In this document: positions 8,263-64,000 of the stretch, piece by piece | Numbering within the stretch: the stretch's first letter is position 1 | Layout of the letters: the number at the start of each line of letters is the position of its first letter | Assembly (NCBI GenBank): GCA_018902385.1 | Contig: JABSSW010000066.1 | Span: forward strand, 62,001 to 126,000 | Origin: Physcia stellaris | Taxonomy: Eukaryota; Ascomycota; Lecanoromycetes; Caliciales; Physciaceae | Direction of reading: 5' to 3' | Length of the DNA stretch: 64,000 bases | Notes under the pieces: generated by a model | The model's database searches: none | Seen by the model: the letters and a program-made list of their open reading frames with translations, nothing else | Told to the model about the DNA's origin: nothing | Translations under genes and position numbers: made by a program

Positions 8263-9316
8263 TATCCAAGTTAGTATCGCCGTCCCATGTCTGCTACACG
8301 CATGATTCTTTTGCGAGGATAACCGCTGGTTTCACGTCGAGTTACTGGGTAGGGGTAGATGTAGTCTCAGATCGAGGCTGTTGGCAACTCGATCCCCATA
8401 CCGAAGGCAAGGCTGAACTGGTCCCGTGTGGCTGCTCTCTGTTGCAAGATGAACGCCAGTCATGGCATCACGCGAGAAGCCAACGGCAGCGATTGCATTG
8501 GTGGATGAAAGACAGGGAGACACAGACCTTGGAGAAGACAATGGAGCAGACTACGTTCGGCAGAAACGATGGGCTGAGGCGAGATATGCCGTTGCGACTG
8601 GCTGCGAGAGTGTGCAAGGAAAGGCTAGGGGAAAGATGGAGAATTTGTAAAGATGAAGTTGTGCTTACTGTTTCGATTCATCCGGTAGCGAATGCGGCAA
8701 AGCTGAGGATGCTTTAGCAGGCTGCGTCTTGTCAGATCAGCTCGAGGCTCTTTTCTTCATCGCTTCGCACAGCCCGAGTCATGTCATGCAGCGTACCTGA
8801 ACCGTTGTTTGACCGTCTTTTGCGTAACGTCCTTCCCCGGAAACGATTCGACCAGTCCGGCAGCTACGCGAATTGCGACAGGACCAGCACCACTTAGGCG
8901 TCGCCGGCCCGTAGGATTACGGACGGTAATGTAGGTAAGGCTTAGGACGACCGATCTCCAGCTAAGCAGCGGCCACTAATCCCCAAGTCAGCACTTGCAG
9001 CGATCCTACACCCCGTCTATCAAAGCTTGTGAAAGGAACTCGGGAGACTTGCCCAACACTTGGCGACTCTGGAGCCTGACCTCGACCTCGATAGATAGCT
9101 GTCCGCTCCGCCTTCTCCACGCCGTGCCTAGCCGTCAAAGGGGAGGAGTATTGTCGACCGCAGCGACGTTCGGGGCTGTTCGAATGGGTGTGCAGGTTAT
9201 TGCAGTTGCTTCCGGGGGTGCTGCAGGATGTGCCGGGCGAGATCTGTTTAGTGTGGGGACGATCTATCTCTCTCCTCTCTGACACACACACAGACACACA
9301 CACACACATACACACG

Positions 9317-45625: not shown

Positions 45626-46855
45626 TGTATCGCGTCTTCTAGCAAAGGTATAGTGTCAGCTCATTATGTACTCTGTAGATACCCTTCATATTCGCTTCTA
45701 AAGTACAACACCCTGTTCCAATACACTTTCACGCGCAACACTCTCTCTTTACATGTCGCTACCCGCACCGGAAATTGTGCAAATTCTCAGTGGATTCACT
45801 AGTAACGGACGGAATCTTATCCCACTACCTCAAAATGCTCCAGCCGGCAAGATACTTCCAGCAATGATATCACCTTCCTCGCAGCTACTTACCGATCACG
45901 ATGTACCTTACAAACGGCGCACAAGCTGTTCTAGTACCACTTAAGAACCTCTTTTATGATTCAATTTTCGCTTGAATGGTCTCTAAGCGAAAGTCAAAAT
46001 GAGGGTCAGATAAGCATTGACCTCTGTGACAGGATCAATGTGTGTTTCCTAGCTGTAGATCTAATTTCTCGCTATCACGCAGAGTTTCTTTTAAAGCATA
46101 ATTCCGTACAAGCAAATGGCTGAGTCAGGTGCATTGGCATCTCACTGCATTGGCATCTCACTGCATTGGCATCTCACTGGTGCTTCACACACCAGCTACA
46201 CGTATCTAGGAGGCAGGTAGAGAGTTTTAGTCTTACTAAGCCACACGAGGGTCTGCTTTGTCGGTCAAGATGACCCACGATACATCGAAAGGAATCATCA
46301 ATGCAGCAAACCAAGATTGATCACTAATCCATCAAGTTACACTAGCCTTGGCCCTGAGATACCCTTGCAGGGTTTGGTCCTCAGTTTGGCGATCTAACCT
46401 TGCTGCTTCATTCACCCAATTCCTCAAGCATTCTGCTGCTTAAAGCAACTGACCGTGCCAGACTCTCCTTCATCATGTCGGCTCCTCTACGGGTCCTTGA
46501 CCGCCTCCCGCCCAGCTTCATCTAACTTAAAGAAACTGACGAACATCTGAAGCAAATGTGAATATCATGCTTCAACATGTAGTCATCGTCAGAATTGCAA
46601 TTAGTTGAATATCACCTTCATCTCTCTTTCAAGGCAAATCAACATACATTTCAACTGCATTCGACTCACTCTTTCCTAACCACAAGTATGCGAATGTCGC
46701 TGTCGAGCATGAAATGAAATGCGAATTTTGCGGTTCTGGTCTTTCATCTCCACTGATCTGGAGCCGCGGACTTTGATCGCTGCCATCGATTTTTCATAGG
46801 TGCCAATTTTTCAACAAGGTGCCCCGGTTTCCTCTCCAAAATTTACGTTTTGATC
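45626..46855. other. 1.2-kb intergenic region
   Basis: No supported gene. Contains a perfect 3 x 16-bp tandem repeat at 46131-46178 and the promoter of the C2H2-like gene. Confidence 0.5.
46131..46178. repeat. Three perfect 16-bp tandem copies
   Basis: The unit GCATTGGCATCTCACT occurs three times head to tail at 46131, 46147 and 46163. Confidence 0.95.
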
Positions 46856-52813: not shown

Positions 52814-53189
52814 GTTTGACAGCAAGAAGGGTTTACAGATGACCGAAGAGGCAGAAAGATGCAGAAAGGGACTTACCCGTGCGGTTCATGGTCCTATGCT
52901 GTCGAGTGCGTTGCTCTTGCTAGCACACGCAGATGGTGATATTGTTAGAAGGCTTGGGAAAGAGCTGTCCTACGTCTAATAGTGCCCAAGCAACTTCACG
53001 AGATGCCGGTCATGGCCGCAGATCAGGCGGGAGCTAGGCACCTAAGACTTTCGGTTAGGGCTGGCTTGAAGGTGGCCCACTTTGATGGACTAAGGTAAGG
53101 CACGTAACAAGATTACCGGCTAAGTATCAAGTATCAAGTCACTTCACGTTGAATTGCAATCTCCTCCAGTAGTTACACAGCTATCAATC
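52814..53189. other. NOT2 promoter side up to the retrotransposon
   Basis: About 380 bp of ordinary composition, rich in GG and CC, ending at the LTR start. It probably includes the NOT2 5' leader. Confidence 0.5.
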
Positions 53190-53333
53190 TGTAGAACTAG
53201 GTGGCCAATCAGGGGCCGCCAAGAGCTTAGTAACTAGTACGCACTCCAATGACATTAAAGACTAAAAATCATGTAAATTAGCACCTCATAGAACAACATG
53301 CAATCAATGACTTACTTATTCAGAAGTCTGACA
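53190..53333 (+). repeat. 5' LTR (less mutated copy)
   Basis: It begins TGTAGAACTAGG and the first 67 bases match the copy at 58238. It is followed by TTATGAGCTC at 53335, which resembles the complement of an initiator-Met tRNA anticodon-loop fragment, as used by copia-type elements for priming. The right end (TCTGACA) is a guess based on that site. Confidence 0.6.
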
Positions 53334-53334
53334 G

Positions 53335-53344
53335 TTATGAGCTC
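53335..53344 (+). promoter_or_regulatory. Possible half-tRNA primer-binding site
   Basis: TTATGAGCTC is complementary in most positions to the anticodon arm of initiator tRNA-Met (GAGCTCATAA versus the usual GGGCTCATAA). Drosophila copia primes from such a tRNA fragment; the same use here is inference. Confidence 0.45.
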
Positions 53345-55099
53345 GGATCACGCTTAATTGTTGCATTCAATACGTGATCTATTTGACTATCAATATCTTC
53401 AGCATTCGATTGCTTCGACAGACTAACACGAGAAATCAGAACATCGCGAGAACATTTTCTTGTTTACATTCTTTTACAATCAACAACAACCAAGAATCTC
53501 TTTCTACTTATTCGCTCGTTCAACACGATGACGAATACGAAACGAGAACTCAAATTGAGCTTTTTCAAAAATTGAAACGCGTGACTTTCGATCGTACGAA
53601 TCAAAATCACAGAATACTCGATTTGAAATTTCATCGACTCATTCAAAGATACTCGATCAACGAGCAAATTTGAGTTCGTAAAATTCAATTTTGACGCACA
53701 ACAAAATGTGAATTTCAACGAAAAGCATGCTCGATACAAAATAGCGACATCGAGATACAAAAAGAAGCTTCAAAACTGAGAGAAGCAGAAAAATTTCATG
53801 ACAAAAATAATCGATCACATTTACGATACAACAACGATTACAAATCTCAATTTTATTCAGATCGTTGAAATTCATTCATGAATCGTTTTTCGCGCTTTCA
53901 AAGCACGTTTTGCATTCATCGATTCGGCTAGAAATTTGAAATTGAAACAAGAATACAATCGCATGATCAAAAATTCATTCAATCGTCAAAACATCGATGT
54001 TTGAATAAACGACTATTTGAAGATGCTGACACTCGCTAAGCAAACGAAAATTGTTGAAATCATCGATAACAAACGAATCTATCGTGATTTTTTACACGCA
54101 ATCGACAAAATCGCATCTATTTTCGCTGAAATACAACTATTTCAACTAAACACTGTAACGAATCACGAAATTCAACTTCTCATTTTCATCGAGATTTTTC
54201 GACATCACATGCGCATGAAAAAAGTTCGAAAAAAAGAAAAAAACGATATTCAACTCGACATTCGTTATTGACGAGTGCAATCACACAAATCATCGAAATC
54301 ATTCTGACATCTCGTCATTTCGAGATCAGAATCAATCTCGAAATTTTTGCATTTGCGAAAAGAAGCATTTTTACGACGATTGTTTCTATCTCAACGAGAA
54401 AATACGCTCAAATGATTTCAAACTGAAGTCAGAAATCGTGACTAAAATAGACGAAGCGAAAAAAAATTCAAAAAAAAGAAAACAAATAAAACAAAGCATC
54501 AAGCGAATTGACGAAAAACGTCAAAAAAAAAACGATAACAACAAAAATACAGAAATCGAAATAAAATTCTTCGTCGTCATTCACGTCAATGTCATAGAGT
54601 CGTTTACAAGCGACTCGTTTTCGTCAAGTTATTCTTTTCGTTCGTCGTGAATTATGAATCACGATTTCGACATTCACGTGATCAACAGCACAATGAAACA
54701 TCGCTTTCAAAAAAAGCGAAATTGCACAGACGAATCGAAAGTTATGTTCGACATGAAATCACTTTTTATTTTGACATATGAGCGAATGCGTATCGACGTC
54801 GATACACTCACAGGAAAAAAGTCAATGAAACTTCTGAACGTCAATTACGTATCAGACTTCATGATCAATATCGTCGCGAAAAGCATTTTCGCAAACAAAG
54901 AACTGCATTTTGATACAGCTCATGAACATTTGCACAGAAACGATCATCGATCGTTCTCGTGTCACGAGTAGAAACACACTACGTTTTCGAAAATAATAAA
55001 TTTGAAAAGATGAGCGATCTTCGCAATCATCGTGCGACAAAAATTTATTCTAAAATGACATCAATTTTCATTTCGCTCATGCGAATAATGACGTCATAC

Positions 55100-55600
55100 A
55101 ACATTTACAAGAAACAATTGAAAAAATGAAGTTCATCAACAAAAATAAAATGCCATTGACTAACAAATGCGAAAAATGTGCTCTTTTCAAAGCACATCGA
55201 ATTGTATTCAAATTCTCTGTAAAGTCAAAAACTTCGAACAAATCGTTCTATCGTATTACATACGATCTCATCGATATAACAACGACTTTGAACAAGCACA
55301 AATGAATATCACACGTGACATGCTTCGAAACAGACTTTCATGATATACGCACACGAGAAGCGAAAAAGAACAAATCACGAAAATATTTATTCGAGTCATT
55401 CACATCATCGAGACCAGATACAACGACAAAATGATATTTGTACGTTCTGACGACGAACGCGCGCTAAACACTGTCTGAAATGACTACTGTGCATTCAAAA
55501 ACATTACACATGAATTCTCGATCGTTGATATTTCAGCACAGAACGATCACAGCGAACGATTAGATGACATATTGTTGATCAAGTCACGAGCAATGAGACT
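55100..55600 (+). pseudogene. Copia GAG-pre-integrase/integrase remnant
   Basis: CEKCALFKAHR at 55168-55200 matches the CxxC half of the pre-integrase zinc domain. The following sequence reads as integrase core in pieces across frames (YRITYDLIDITT; later HSERLDDILL near 55550, like the usual HSER motif before a Gly-rich stretch). In-frame TGA stops occur at positions where Trp is usual. Confidence 0.65.
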
Positions 55601-56559
55601 CGAAACAAACTTATTTGTTTATTTATGATCGTGAATCAATGAGATCGCTGATTACATAATGAATCGTACATTTTTCAAAAAACATGAATGAAAAACATCG
55701 TTCGAAATGATCATCGACAAAAAGTCGAATCTTGTTCACATCGTTCAATATAAAACAAAAGCATACTTTCTGAATAAGAATATTCCGAAGAAGAAAAAGA
55801 TGAGAATCAAAGCACACATCGATTTTCTTGTAAAATATGACAGCATCAACATTTTTTTAATTTGAATTTTTAATCAACATAAGATTATACGTACACGTGA
55901 TGTCACATTCAACGAAGACTCACGTTATCGTTCTAACGAAATAGATTTAGTTCAGTTCGTCAACGAGCTCTTTCTGACTAACGATACACTTGACATATCG
56001 CAGAGCGATTTCACGAGAATAGTGAACATCGAATCAGACAGCGACGAAAATGTATGAAAGTTAACATTTACAAAATCTATTATCGATCGCGATGCAAAGA
56101 AATTTCACAAACAAACAATTGAGAACGATTCTGAATCAGAATATTTATTCTCATTTGTTTCATTTTCGTCAAGAAGTGAGAACACGTTAAATACGCAAAA
56201 CACGTCAAATACGTCTGATTTTTCGTATTTTTCGTCATCTGTCGCTACAGAAATCGCTACAGAAAATTTCTCGTCATCTGTCGTTGCAAAAACAGTGAAG
56301 AAATTATTTTCGTTTGCATCGTCGTTGAAAGAAAAGAAATCGAAACATTGAACGAAAACAACGATTGACGAAATCAATATTCAATTTGAAAAATTCATTC
56401 GTATTCGCAAATCAAATTCGTTTCGAAATTTCAATCATTACATTGTTTTGAAGAACGCGTTCGCAAAAAGAATGCGTTCATTTTACGAAACATTTATGAT
56501 TTCATTGACGATAAAAATGAAATCGCATCGTGACAATCTTTTCGTCGAATCAAAATTCT

Positions 56560-57140
56560 ATCATCAGATCGCTCAAACATGCTGAAATCGTCGACTTTTT
56601 ACGAGTCATTGACGTGAAAATCAAAGCATTACAGTCAAAACAGATTTGAAAAAAAATATCATGAAATCATGTCAAACAAGCAAAAAAGACTTCTATATTT
56701 ATCACATGAGTATTCAAATACAAATTCGACAATGAGAAATATTTGATAAAGCACAAAACTAAATTGTGTGTTCGAAAAGATTTTCAACAAATCGAGCAAA
56801 ACGTCTATGCAACTACATTAGTTATTAGAATATTTCGAGCATTAATGATCATAATTACAGTTTTCGATTTGAACACTCGTCAATATGACGCAATCAATGC
56901 ATTCGCAAATAGCGATATCGACGAACTCATCTATTGCAAATCGTTTGACGATTGAAAAAAAACAAACAATGTCTTTACTTCTTCTATTGAAAGCATTATA
57001 CGAATTGAAACAGTTTTCAACATTATGATATCGACATTTCTCGATCACTTTTAACAATCTAAATCTGAAACAAATGTTCGACATCGAGTGTCTATTCATG
57101 TGCGACTACATGATTTTATTTTTTCGTGAACGATATAGCA
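56560..57140 (+). pseudogene. Copia reverse transcriptase (RVT_2) remnant
   Basis: KHKTKLCVRKDFQ, YATTLVIRIFRALMI and VFDLNTRQYDAINAF are RVT_2 landmarks; the normal Gly after VR is Lys here. A stop (TGA) at 56954-56956 replaces the expected Trp. The catalytic VDD motif appears as V-N-D at 57126-57134, a change expected from GG to GA. Confidence 0.82.
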
Positions 57141-57335
57141 GTCATGTATTATTCTTAGTACTTCAAACAGATCGACGTTTTCGAAAAGAAACTCTTCGAA
57201 ATTTACGAAATGAGAAACATGAGCGAGATCGAATGATTTCTCAATATTCGCATTACACGCGATAGAAAGCAACAAACAACGTCACTTTGTCAAAACAGTT
57301 ACATCGATAAGCTCATCAATAAATTCAATATCAAT

Positions 57336-58180
57336 ATGAACAAAAAAGAGTCAAAATCATTTATAGTCAATTATATTTCGATGATAAAGAATAAGAATAA
57401 TGCTATTTCACAAAAAATTCACATGTATCAACAGAAGATCGATTCGATCAATTTCGTTGCAACAATCATTCGATCAGATGTAATCGTTCTTTGCGCATCA
57501 TTATTATCTGAATATTTTACAAATTCATTTAAACATCATGCGAAGCAAACGACTCGAACGTTAAAATATCTGACACACATCAAGTACTACGTCATTGTCT
57601 ACAAAAATCAAACAAATCATGAAATCATCATCTTTTAGTCTCGTCAAATGCGTCATTCGCAAACGATCTAGACACTCGTCAGAACTCAAATGGATATTGC
57701 TTCATGTTTTTCGACGATTTTATCGATTGAAAAATCACAAAGCAAAAAACAATCACAATTAATTTCATCGAAATCGAATTGCTGATCATGTCAATGACGA
57801 CAAACATCAAAATATGATGAGATCGTTTCTTTGAATCAATACAAATGAACATGAAAAAACTCATTCACATTCAATGCGATAATCGTCAAACTATACGAAC
57901 GTTTACGATGTCAACGATCAAATTAATCACTAAATTACGTCATGTCGATATACATCGTCATTGATTACGTCAGAAGATGCAAAAGAACACGATCAACATT
58001 CAATGAATTTTTACAGCGAGTATTTTGACCGATGATTTCATCAAAACTTTATCATCTCAAAAGCAGAAGGCATTCGTGAAACTGATTGATTTAAAGTTTA
58101 TTTCGATATCAAATTCGAAAAAAAACGACGAATTCGATCAATCAAAAATCGAATAGATCGCATCATGAATCACATCGAAA
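57336..58180 (+). pseudogene. Copia RNase H region remnant
   Basis: YQQKIDSINFVATIIRSDV and NRQTIRTF-type motifs, with TLKYLTHIKYYVIVY between, follow the usual Copia order. The frame is broken by TGA stops (for example near 57738) in places where Trp is normal (FID-stop-KITKQK). Confidence 0.8.
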
Positions 58181-58237
58181 AATGAATAAAACATCAAAAA
58201 TAGAACGAAATATTAGATATTTCCTTCTAAAGAGATG

Positions 58238-58610
58238 TGTAAAACTAGATGATCAATCAGAAATCGTCAAGAGCTTAGTAACTAATACGCACTTCAATGA
58301 CATTAGTGTAAGAAACTCAGAGTTCAAGGCAGTGCGAGCCGGATCTCGATTGCCAAGAATTCAGATCAAGCAGATTCGAAACATCAATTCACGAGACGAT
58401 CAGTTTCATCATATCAATCACTCGTCACGCATATCGCATATCGGCTAGATATTCATGCGCAAGAGTTTGTAAGTTCGTACTATTGACAAGTCGAACGAGT
58501 ATATATTGCGAAATCTGCAGAGCAATTAGTTCTGCAATTATTAGTCTAGTCATATTATTGTCTTTGCTATACATCTCTGATGCCATGTCTCTTACATTCT
58601 AATAACTACA
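58238..58610 (+). repeat. 3' LTR (mutated copy)
   Basis: It begins TGTAAAACTAGATG and aligns without gaps to the 5' copy for 67 bases. It then diverges from it. A possible right end is AACTACA at 58610, which would pair with the TGTA start as an inverted end. A purine-rich AAAGAGA precedes it, as a polypurine tract would. Confidence 0.6.
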
Positions 58611-61600
58611 ATAACCAATAGATTAGCATCACTCGTGTATAGCTAGCAGTCGAAGCGATTGAGCGTTCTCAATGACTGAACGCGTGCTACGTTTTCAGAG
58701 TTCGATTTGGACGAGAAATCGATACTACAAAAATTGAGATGAAAAGCAATGTCATCGAGCTCGAAGTGTTTACACTATACAGCTAAATATCGCAATTCTG
58801 ATTGACTGTATTGCTCTACTATCACGCATTGTGCAATTTAGAAAGCGAGCTCGTGCTTGAAGAGCTACAACGAAAAAGTTTAGACAGATTTTGCAAAGCA
58901 AACTATCTTCAACAATGTGAAATCTACAACGAATCTACAAACGTGATTTCAATCATTCGATTTCATTGACATTTTCAACGACAAGCGTCGATCATTCCAA
59001 ATCTCGATTATTCACAGCAGTAACAGCAAACCAAAAACATCAAAACGTTTGAAAAAGTCTGCGCAACTTGTCGAAGCTTCGATGCGAAACGAATTCTCGT
59101 TATTTTATACTCAAGTCATCGAATAACAATTCGAGAACAACGATTTCGATTGTTCTGTCTTCATTGCAGAACATCAAAAGTCTGAATATCAAAAACGTTT
59201 TCAAAAACAAATGAATGCTGACCTCAACAAGAAAGCGTAGTAAAATATTCAGAAAATCACATGACAGCTTCAATAAGATCTTTCTTTCACGATTTAGAAA
59301 TGGCACGAATGCGAGATCGTTCGATTGCAATACAATTTCAAATCGAGAAAATGACATGACTGCAATGCAATTCAAAGTCAAAATGATAAGAAATTCACGT
59401 TCGATAAGGCTAACAGGCATTCAGTCAAGATACATTGTATCGTCGACGTTTCGATCGCGTCAGTTGCGATGCAACAAGCAGAACGTATCTGAACTTCAAG
59501 AGACTCAAACTGTTTCACAAGATAGATGTTGATTTTGCAAGAGCTGATCTTGAAATAAACAACAATTGAGTTATCTGATCATCTTCGGTCAAGCTCACAT
59601 TGCATAGTGAACGTCCCTATAGACAATAAACAATGAGCAAGAAGTATAGCGACGACGAATTTTTGCGACGAACGCTGCAGACATTCGCATCAAGCGTCGT
59701 CGCAAACAATTTCAGATGACTAAGCAATTAAATTCATGATATGAATACGAAATCACATCGACTTCAAATGCAAAAATCAATTTGAGAAGTAATGTCTTCG
59801 CTGAACTCAAAACAGTTTCGTTTCAAATCTCTAGTCACGATGCTGCGACATTGAGCAGCAATCAACTCAAATTCATGACGTTTGTTTCGTACGAATATCA
59901 GTCTTGAACAAAAACGACTTCAGACGTTTTCTGAATGAAAAGCTTCTAAAAATTGATTTGAATCAATCGATTTCGTGAAACTGCTCTCGATGCAGCAAGA
60001 TCAGAGTGAATATATCGATCAAGTCCGGTCTTGACATTTTGCAATGCAAAATCTTTCCATCATAAATCGTTTCGAGCACATCGAGTCAGAAGAATCAGTC
60101 GGCTCTATTATTTATAGTCAAAACAAAATTTTCGATGTATTCGTACGAATACTCTATAGCGAGAATACGACTTCGCATGAAGCGCATTCTGAGCAATGAG
60201 CTCGTATAGATCTAGTTCTATCGAAGATCAAGATATTTTCAAGAGAAACTCACAACAAGATTTTCGAATCTGACAGATAATGAATCTGACGAACATACAA
60301 TTTGCTCAATGAACATGCAACAGATTTGACGAGCATGCGATATGTTTGACGAGCTCGCAATGAATCACGATCATGCAATTGAACAAGAAATCATTTCATA
60401 ATTTCATCTATTTTGTTTATCGAAAAATGATTAACAATATCGAAAGTATATTTGATTGAATATTTAAACAACGATGATATGCTGTGCAAACATCGAAAAC
60501 GATTTTATCAAAAAATCTTTCAGTTTTGTTACTTTTTACGAGTCAATCTATCATTTGATCAAGAAATCGCTCGACGAAAACGTTCATTTTGTCATATGAT
60601 TGCTCGACGAAGATTTCACATCTATATCTACAAGTGCAGCATATAGCAGACTTCATGTAAAGCAAATGACGAGCGCAAACGACGTCAAGAGCGAAATATA
60701 TCGTTCGACGAAGACGTCAATAATATCGTTCAATTGTTCGACGAAAATTCGTCGTCTATACAAGTTTTATGAAACATTTGATCATCATCGCTCGACGAAA
60801 ACTCATATCTGTATAAATCATATGATTGCACGAACAACGGGCCTCGCAGCTACAATTTTTTATATGATTGCGACATGCGACATGCAGCAGATTTCGCACA
60901 AAGCAAAATACAAACGCTAAACGACGTTAAAACGAGCTATAGATTGTTGAGTACAACATTTTGCTCTTGTCTTGTTGATTCGTTCGCACAATAGATCAAA
61001 CGTTTAAAGCTATACGTTGAATATATTCGGCCGAAGGTTATACGCTTCGCGAATCATAAAACAATTGACGAAACGATCAAACTCTTAAACGTCGACGAAG
61101 CGTACACTTGAAATATTCTTGAATGCATCTATTCTGTTGCAATTCGATTCGATTAAATCGTTCGTATGAAAATTGACGCTCAGAACGAAACAATAAATTT
61201 TATTTTTCGTCACGATGACTTTTGCAACGCAATAAGTCATGAGCATTTTCTGATCACGATGTCATCGAAATCTCAGCAAGCACGATGAACACAATCTCGT
61301 CATCGATCATCGTTTCGACAGCGAAAATTCTGCAAAACGAACGACTTATTCTGACGATTCGGTCAAAAAATCATTGAGGAAAAGACTGAAGCAATCGTCG
61401 ATTTGAGATGAAAACAATCGTCAATTTGATGTCGTGATTGCAACGATTTTTGCAGACGTTCGATCAAATCGAATTTGCTAGACGAGAAAATCACGATGAT
61501 AGTGACTTTTCAAATCATTTCGATGTGATTTAAGCAAACGCAAAAATCAAATCACGAAGAATATCGCGAATTCGGATAGTTTTCGAAGAGAAATTGCGAA

Positions 61601-61930
61601 TTCGAATTTTTAGCAACGAGTGACGTGCGATCTCGACGATTTCGTTCTTTTTTGCTCATCGTCGCGCATCAGACGTGATGCTTTCGTTGAATACAGTAAT
61701 ATTGAATAATGCAACAATTCTCGAGTCGATCTTAATGAAGATGACTACGCAAAAACATATTTACGAATCTGATATAAAGAATGACGTTTCATTGTTTATT
61801 GACAAGCGACAATCCGTTGTCAAACAATGACGACGTGAAGCAGAAATTAGCTATTTCTGATACATCACGCTCGCATTGTCATTAGAGAAGACGTTGCTAT
61901 TGCAGAACAATTTTTGATCGATTCATCAGT

Positions 61931-62010
61931 GTGAAACGCATTTGGTCGGACATTTCTTGATGTGAAACGCATTTGATCAAGCATTTCGATGTGAAACGCA
62001 TCTTGAAATC
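61931..62010. repeat. Three copies of a roughly 30-bp direct repeat
   Basis: TGTGAAACGCAT begins at 61931, 61962 and 61991, with similar sequence (TTTGATCAAGCATTTCGA type) between copies. Confidence 0.8.
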
Positions 62011-62097
62011 AATACGGAAGTATTGCAGATCGAATTCAATAAACGAGATGATTTGCCGAACATCGAGTACGATTTTAGCATACAAACAGCGATCGTA

Positions 62098-62630
62098 AAC
62101 TGCGAAATATATAGATCTTGTAGACATCTCGACAGAATCTGGATATGTAAGCAAGAATCAAAAAATATTACGAAATCATAAATTGCGAAACATATAGATC
62201 GTGCAGACATTTCGTCAAAACTTCTGTATATTTTCATGTGTAGTGCGCAAGTTGAAATCGAGACATAAATCGATTGACAAGACATTTCGTTCAAACTGAA
62301 ACATACGGAAGAAGTCAAATTACGAAACATGCGTGAACAAAGTTCAATATCTCGTCATATTTTTGCGCAAGCAACGACCGGAAACTGCGAGACATATAAA
62401 TCGTGCAAACATTTCGTCAGAGTTTCTTTATATTTTCACATGTAGTGCACAAGTCGAAAGCGAGATACAAGTCAATTGCAAAACATCTCGTTCGAACAAC
62501 GCATACAGAAATCAATCTGCATGCGTCAATGACATTTTTTCATATTTTAGCATTTGCGTAAAATCAGCAATTGCAAAAGTGTTGTCGACATTTTGACAGA
62601 ATCTAGACATGCGAGCATGAATCGAAGATG
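62098..62630. repeat. Degenerate direct repeats, about 83 and 202 bp apart
   Basis: Strings of the type AACTGCGAAACATATAGATC followed by GTGCAGACATTTCGTC recur at 62098, 62181 and 62383. The last two share about 130 bp including TATATTTTCATGTGTAGTGC. A weaker copy is near 62570. Confidence 0.75.
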
Positions 62631-63118
62631 TGCAAGCAAACATCTCATTCAAATTACACGATAAGTTATCGTTTCGATTCAATAAGCACTGATATGAATT
62701 AACTTTACGTGAATCTCATAGCAAATTATCAGAGAGTAGAGCATGAATTATCACGAGATTAACAATCGCAGAAGATCTTTCGAAAGCACAATTTCATGAC
62801 TTTCTTGATTATGCAAAGCACAATTGACGAACAATTGATTGTTCATGACGAAATGACCTGCAATGAATAACTCATCAAAGATATCATCGCTCGAAATTCT
62901 GTCGAAATTTTTCAAAGATAAATCAATTTTGCGAGTCAACGCGCGATCTCGCGATGTTGTTTATATACACAGTTCAAGATTCGAAACAGTCAAACATGCC
63001 GTTTTGCTTTCTAAAGAAGTTCAAGCTAAAAAAAAAAAAAGTTTCGTCAGAACTCCGCTAAAACCCACGAATCAGCTTATAAGACATCGGCATTGATAAG
63101 AAAATAATCACGAATGGG

Positions 63119-63640
63119 TGATCAAGCCACGGCAAGCCGTACAGCGGGGACGAACCTGAAAGCCAACAGCACGGCATATGCAGTCTCCCTGGTGGTACAA
63201 TTGACTAGAACTGTCATACAGTATCACGGCGCGCTCAAGCGTCCTGTAGATGTAATTCATTGAATAAAGCAATTGACTCGAAAACAATCATGTCAATATC
63301 GCGACCAAGTCTCGATCAAATCGTACAGCGAAAAATATCTGAAGATCAATAACATCACAGTGCAGTCTTTCTGATGATACAATCGACTCGAGAATAGTTC
63401 AATATCATGACGCGTTCAAACGTTCTGTAAATGCAATTCTTGATGAAATAATTGACTCGAATAATCATGTCAGAAACGATCGACGCTCTACAGTCACGAA
63501 CAAGTGATCAACTCATGATCAAGCTATGCAACGAAACGTATCTGAAAATCAATATTCAATATCATGGCGCGTTCAGCGTACTGCAGATATAATTTCTTTG
63601 ACGAAGCAACTGACTCGAAAGCAATCAATTCAAATTTCAT
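63119..63640. repeat. 182-bp tandem repeat, about three units
   Basis: Unit 1 (about 63119-63300) keeps many GG and CC; unit 2 (about 63301-63480) matches it at an offset of 182 bp, with most differences C to T or G to A. Unit 3 (about 63481-63640) is more divergent but keeps ATCATGGCGCGTTCA and GCAACTGACTCG. Confidence 0.8.
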
Positions 63641-64000
63641 GTCATCAATTCTGTGTTGCTTACTGCCTAGAATTTACAGCGCATGAAGAGCTGAATCGTG
63701 TCAAAAACATCTTCAGAGATTGTTGCTCGATTTAACTGAGCGTTGAGCATCGTGAATGTGAATGTGAAATGAAGCGAGAAGATAGAAAATCGACGAGAAT
63801 TTCGAAGTCTGATGTATTCAATGCGGTCGCGTCTATTTCATCAATAGAAAATCATATGACGTCTCTCGCGTTTAATCACTCTTCTTCAGACAACTCATCG
63901 ATTCGATATATGAAATAGAAGAATAGAAAATAATTGAGACTCGAATTCGATTTTTCTGTCATTCAGTCAGCTGTTATGTCACCAGATCGAAAACTGTGAA
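63641..64000. other. AT-rich sequence without recognised feature
   Basis: It continues the mutated-type composition with rare GG and CC to the window edge. No gene or repeat boundary seen. Confidence 0.45.

Follow-up and report, generated by a model that had tools for sequence, protein, structure and literature searches.

Copia-type element copies are mutated at cytosines that precede pyrimidines

Copies of a Copia-type element in the genome of Physcia stellaris (GenBank assembly GCA_018902385.1; 43.97 Mb, 147 contigs) carry dense C-to-T changes at cytosines followed by a pyrimidine (CpY), with CpC changed first and CpT next. One copy lies in a block, nearly free of CC and GG, that runs from about 53346 onward in a stretch of 64,000 nucleotides (bases 62001-126000 of contig C66, JABSSW010000066.1), hereafter the window, whose numbering is used unless another is given. 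The element was searched for in the assembly, yielding 66 matches; 30 were excised as loci, and 29 of these were aligned to the remaining one, L017, which is the least changed copy and not the ancestor, with both strands pooled. Relative to L017, C had become T at 9143/9680 CpC and 10090/12292 CpT sites, compared to 1492/13242 CpA and 799/12003 CpG sites. Counted separately, the two strands gave fractions of 0.928 and 0.961 for CpC and of 0.822 and 0.820 for CpT, and the base 5' of the cytosine was nearly without effect (ACC 0.932 and TCC 0.980; ACT 0.819 and TCT 0.841; TCA 0.122 and TCG 0.064). When the element ends were left out, the changed fractions in the cores of the 29 individual copies ranged from 0.90-0.99 for CpC, 0.54-0.96 for CpT, 0.04-0.30 for CpA and 0.04-0.11 for CpG; the core of the window copy was changed at 406/452 CpC, 305/561 CpT, 33/610 CpA and 27/564 CpG sites, and its other differences from L017 were few (66 T-to-C changes and 100 transversions, of 5081).

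Because CpT was changed as well as CpC, the target is CpY, with CpC preferred to CpT. CpC as the sole target is ruled out by the CpT changes in the 29 copies, in ribosomal DNA (rDNA) and in a second repeat family (see below). An initial annotation of this DNA, made from its letters, had proposed C-to-T change wherever C is followed by C, on both strands; both strands are indeed hit, CpC is hit hardest and CpA and CpG are spared, but CpT has to be added as a target. It had also held that the pattern does not match classical repeat-induced point mutation (RIP), with which the low CpA count, showing no preference of the classical type, agrees. The check that it had proposed, an alignment of copies with C-to-T tabulated by 3' neighbour, leaves its reading unrefuted, as CpA is not the main target in the 29 copies. 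Its label of Copia holds because L017 has an open frame of 1257 amino acids containing RVT_2, which we take to be a Copia marker, together with other retrotransposon Pol domains; a Pfam search with two frames of the window gave nothing above the cut-off.

Composition of the block and its detection by RIP indices

Strand-symmetrised observed/expected ratios in 53601-58000 were 0.03 for CC, 0.61 for CT, 1.25 for CA, 2.25 for CG, 1.53 for TC and 0.44 for TA, compared to ordinary values of 0.93, 1.06, 1.11, 0.90, 1.14 and 0.71 respectively in 1-53000. Only 6 CC and GG steps were present in 53601-58000, whereas 1000 shuffles of the same bases gave a mean of 242 and a minimum of 202, so the depletion is far outside chance; the GC content over 53346-63110 was 34.7%. 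On recount, the initial annotation's figures of two CC or GG steps in 53401-54600 and none in 54001-54600 proved exact, and its approximately 40 CpG in the latter interval came to 40. The ratio of 0.93 in 1-53000 likewise confirms that neighbouring DNA is rich in CC and GG and, set against 0.03 in the block, disposes of the possibility, named in advance as fatal to that reading, that CpC and GpG in the block would equal those of genes.

The usual RIP indices do not register this change. At their usual thresholds they called 0/20 windows of the block and 2/105 control windows, while a CpC index, (CpC+GpG)/(TpC+GpA), of below 0.2 called 20/20 and 0/105 respectively, its value being 0.012 in 53346..58234 compared to 0.802 in 1-53000. 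In the element TpA/ApT was 0.42, which is not high, and the substrate index (CpA+TpG)/(ApC+GpT) was 1.31, which is not low, and with few CpA sites changed the element does not have the character of classical CpA-type RIP. Nor does it show the loss of CpG expected if CpG were methylated and then deaminated, as in methylation induced premeiotically (MIP) or by a Masc2-like activity, CpG being at 2.25 times expectation. Standard tests are thus blind to CpY-type change, as both usual indices score the block as non-RIP. A kingdom-wide survey from 2025 describes RIP-like defences as sharing a CpA preference (PMC12543289). Adding the CpC index to such surveys would be a simple reanalysis and, if there is a pyrimidine class of RIP, genomes rated as free of RIP may be heavily mutated.

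Conversion is confined to repeats and appears to have come in bursts

Conversion ended at the edge of the repeat unless another converted stretch adjoined it, and flanking unique DNA was spared. On the left, CC and GG were retained up to the element edge in 8/9 converted copies, the exception (L008) sitting in converted DNA; on the right, flanks were unconverted in 5/9 (L006, L007, L009, L011, L012) and the remaining four border converted DNA. Transversion differences among ten copies amounted to only 0.7-2.2% of sites while approximately 0.9 of CpY sites were changed, and this near-saturation at so low a divergence argues for bursts of mutation and not for slow decay. Changed CpT sites in three copies clustered with an odds ratio of 1.78 on the same strand and 1.51 on opposite strands, giving no clear sign of strand processivity.

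We also observed graded protection at the repeat edge, over the initial 200 bases, which in the window copy are 53187-53386. In nine copies with an unconverted left flank, CpY conversion rose from 24/153 in bases 1-50 to 27/71 in 51-100, 50/81 in 101-150 and 58/72 in 151-200, reaching a plateau by about 150-200; in the window copy, 5/34 CpY sites were converted in the first 150 reference bases.

The same change in other repeated sequences

Dense C-to-T change on both strands was found in repeated DNA of three kinds, namely the 29 element copies, a second repeat family and rDNA. Two copies of the second repeat differed by C/T at 34/42 CpC, 280/635 CpT, 23/1206 CpA and 16/1090 CpG sites. A copy of the rDNA unit (L039; G000 C41, around 45899-46052), comprising the end of 18S, 5.8S and the start of 28S, was CpY-mutated throughout: relative to the Rfam consensus, C had become T at 35/47 CpC, 23/51 CpT, 4/58 CpA and 3/52 CpG sites, counting, over 12 printed alignment blocks, only those consensus letters that are flagged as conserved, and leaving out blocks with a lower-case-only consensus, insertion-only rows and two rows of the small subunit (SSU), namely a short one and the last. 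This recount is less clean than a smaller one on 8 hand-picked blocks (CpC 26/31, CpT 20/36, CpA 1/44, CpG 2/40). The unit is the sole 5.8S match found in the assembly. The 5.8S spelling might point to Eurotiomycetes, while the uL3 protein comes closest to chains 7r81, 8oo0 and 7olc, which we take to be from Neurospora crassa and Chaetomium, and so indicates a filamentous ascomycete.

Domain searches of the assembly gave a similar picture. Change at CpY should create stops almost only from TGG, by conversion of GpG to GpA, as CAA and CAG cannot yield TAA and TAG by this route, and the stops in RVT_1 matches accord with this: of 527 candidates, 150 were scored and held 250 TGA, 33 TAA and 3 TAG, with 10 matches free of stops. 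Among ten DDE_1 loci, conversion covered a large part or the whole of eight, L040 was normal and L043 had short converted patches only. This last transposase locus is of normal composition apart from patches of 100-300 bases that are free of CC and GG, around 1101-1200, 1601-1900 and 2501-2700.

Methyltransferase genes and a candidate enzyme

A search of the assembly with PF00145 found three genes (L001, L002 and L003), all of normal composition. L002 is DIM-2-type, matching PDB chain 9bap (2e-181), which we take to be Neurospora DIM-2. The other two are RID/Masc1-type, with the triads EQT (L003) and EET (L001) downstream of an intact PCQ motif, and thus the search for such enzymes that was recommended in the initial annotation yielded two genes. 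They are diverged: the catalytic part is 40% identical over 174 amino acids and the N-terminal part 34% over 149. The L001 match holds two TGA codons, the first of which is spliced out by an in-frame 60-base GT-AG intron. In the Masc1/Rid group the ENV triad is replaced by EQT (N. crassa, Masc1, PaRid) or by EET (B. cinerea, P. destructans) (PMC6709928), and because two class I proteins or rid copies co-occur with CpT change in other fungi we tentatively suggest that the second, EET, branch may comprise RIP enzymes that read a pyrimidine at +1, CpC best, and so form a separate pyrimidine class of RIP, although we would regard this as possible rather than probable.

Origin of the change

We consider it likely that the mechanism is RIP-type, that is a process directed at repeats, and probable that its +1 preference is inverted relative to Neurospora. 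Homology would be the cue by which repeats are recognised, probably during the sexual phase, and the rise in conversion inward from the repeat edge is in keeping with such recognition. One of the RID/Masc1-type C5-cytosine methyltransferases would then act on cytosines with a pyrimidine at +1; the EET paralogue L001 is the most likely candidate, with the EQT gene L003 or DIM-2 less likely. Thymine could arise by methylation followed by deamination or by direct deamination, and repeated rounds would saturate CpC first and CpT next. That the 3' neighbour is decisive and the 5' neighbour nearly irrelevant accords with C5-methyltransferases, which read CpN.

Several observations weigh against this reading. 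CpA was changed somewhat more often than CpG in the 29 copies, so that a slow CpA component exists, and one locus (L025; G000 C61:238911-241686) had the most CpA change, at 104/352 compared to 40/357 for CpG, which may reflect the greater age of this copy, a different enzyme or a second component that acts slowly. Columns that still vary between C and T among the copies, counted without a reference, numbered 649 for CT, 539 for CA, 278 for CG and 39 for CC; on its face this tells against CpC, but by the same count 440/503 CpC columns were already at least 90% T, and it is this saturation of CpC that leaves CpT and CpA as most of the varying columns. Since L017 has hardly changed, either the process is not current or this copy escaped it. 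As for the enzyme, the link to EET is drawn from lists in two papers, and M. oryzae has a CpT signature with one listed RID (PMC4352252).

A succession of two enzymes, one for CpC and another (RID or DIM-2) for CpT, would suit the presence of two RID-type genes and one DIM-2-type gene and the range of 0.33-0.97 in the relative rate of CpT to CpC among copies. We think it rather unlikely, as CpC was at or near saturation wherever CpT was changed in the 29 copies, a single enzyme of unequal preference is equally simple, and saturation and background differences would also make the CpT/CpC ratio rise. It is less likely still that the changes arose without RIP, by slow deamination of 5-methylcytosine laid down in heterochromatin by DIM-2 (or a Dnmt5) with a bias to CpY. 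The genome does have a DIM-2-type gene, and DIM-2 prefers CpT according to a review of 2026 (PMC13297926), but the context changed first here is CpC and not CpT, the conversion ends at repeat boundaries and the saturation of CpY at such low transversion difference favours a burst.

CpC and CpT are dipyrimidines and C-to-T is a common product both of APOBEC-kind cytidine deaminases and of ultraviolet damage, so these too might be invoked. With both, it is the base 5' of the changed cytosine that matters (TpC, CpC), a rule which is not obeyed here since TCA and TCG were changed at only 0.122 and 0.064 while ACC was changed at 0.932; with unique flanks unchanged and both strands hit alike, we regard this origin as very improbable. 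A compositional quirk of the elements or an assembly artefact, without any mutation, would account for the skewed composition itself and for nothing further, and is refuted by base-by-base change in the aligned copies, in the second family and in rDNA relative to Rfam, leaving it a negligible chance.

Comparison with known systems

The RIP-type process favoured here shares with RID-dependent RIP of Neurospora crassa the C-to-T change on both strands, its density in repeats, the sparing of unique DNA and a RID/Masc1-type gene. It differs in that CpC exceeds CpT with CpA and CpG nearly spared, and in that TpA/ApT falls here and rises there. The order in N. crassa is CpA > CpT > CpG > CpC, and CpC is also last in T. 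reesei (PMC5496416); CpC is thus last in both fungi for which an order is quoted and first here, with a more than 10-fold drop to CpA/CpG. Natural variation thereby enters the question of how RIP enzymes read the +1 base, and this genome offers two diverged RID-type genes on which to test it.

CpT-biased signatures are described for Botrytis cinerea, Sclerotinia sclerotiorum and Magnaporthe oryzae (Amselem 2015, PMC4352252), with two class I (RID/Masc1) proteins listed for each of the first two. The likeness extends to CpT as a target, the paired class I proteins in Botrytis and Sclerotinia and the EET triad in B. cinerea Rid; CpT is amply changed here, though it ranks second to CpC. CpA, which is the main or second signature in those fungi, is not a companion target here, as the per-copy values of the element cores show, and in the main text of that paper CpC has 0 mentions. 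According to a 2014 paper citing Clutterbuck, elements of S. sclerotiorum carry more mutation at CpA and CpG than at CpY (PMC4188875). Trichoderma reesei, Anisogramma anomala and Colletotrichum truncatum have RID-type genes and repeat-confined C-to-T change as here, A. anomala with two rid copies and CpT change and C. truncatum with Copia families that lean to CpT; they differ in the last place of CpC (T. reesei) and in CpA change or a high TpA/ApT (the other two). The CpG/TpCpG hypermutation of basidiomycetes (Microbotryum) and the CpG change of some ascomycetes are likewise context-specific C-to-T change in repeats, but CpG is almost spared here.

CpT is also reported as a RIP target in N. 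crassa Tad1 and Stagonospora (PMC2621366) and in control fungi (PMC7882544). CpC is depleted in Stagonospora with CpA dominant (PMC2621366), and 'CpC to TpT double mutations' accompany classical CpA change in Monilinia (PMC8959702). No CpC-led RIP was recognised among the matches listed in the full-text literature, subscription papers lying outside that coverage, and the initial annotation's suggestion of an undescribed process stands within the same bounds.

Structure of the block

The features of the block are listed in Table 1. The element, of approximately 5.1 kb, is delimited by a terminal repeat, 53187-53257 recurring at 58235-58305 with 83% identity; query bases 1-147 recur at the right ends of other copies, and the right repeat differs from the left by changes of GG to GA and CC to TC.

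Table 1. Features of the CC- and GG-depleted block and its edges (window coordinates).
Feature	Position	Strand	State or evidence
Left terminal repeat (long terminal repeat-like), edge of Copia-type element	53187..53333	+	Largely unconverted
Interior of Copia-type element, heavy C-to-T at CpC and CpT	53346..58234	+	CpC index, alignment to L017
Start of right terminal repeat, converted, truncated by next repeat	58235..58306	+	Pairwise alignment
Second repeat, unrelated to the first, likewise converted	58307..63000		Copy on C40, C/T differences
Unconverted island inside block	63001..63200		9 CC and 10 GG per 200 bases
Converted repeat DNA, extending past the window end	63201..64000		0-2 CC and 0-1 GG per 200 bases

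The initial annotation had ended the block at 63110, but the depletion resumes at 63201-64000 and continues into the following 4 kb of the contig (bases 126001-130000, L037), where CC observed/expected was 0.19. Two small islands within the block are unconverted, one at 63001-63200 and the other, in L037, at about 64601-65000 in window numbering. Over 58700-63000 the second repeat matches a copy on C40 at 91% identity and numerous others at greater distance, and it contains at 62083-62626 degenerate direct repeats with units of 45-97 bases that are 72-82% alike.

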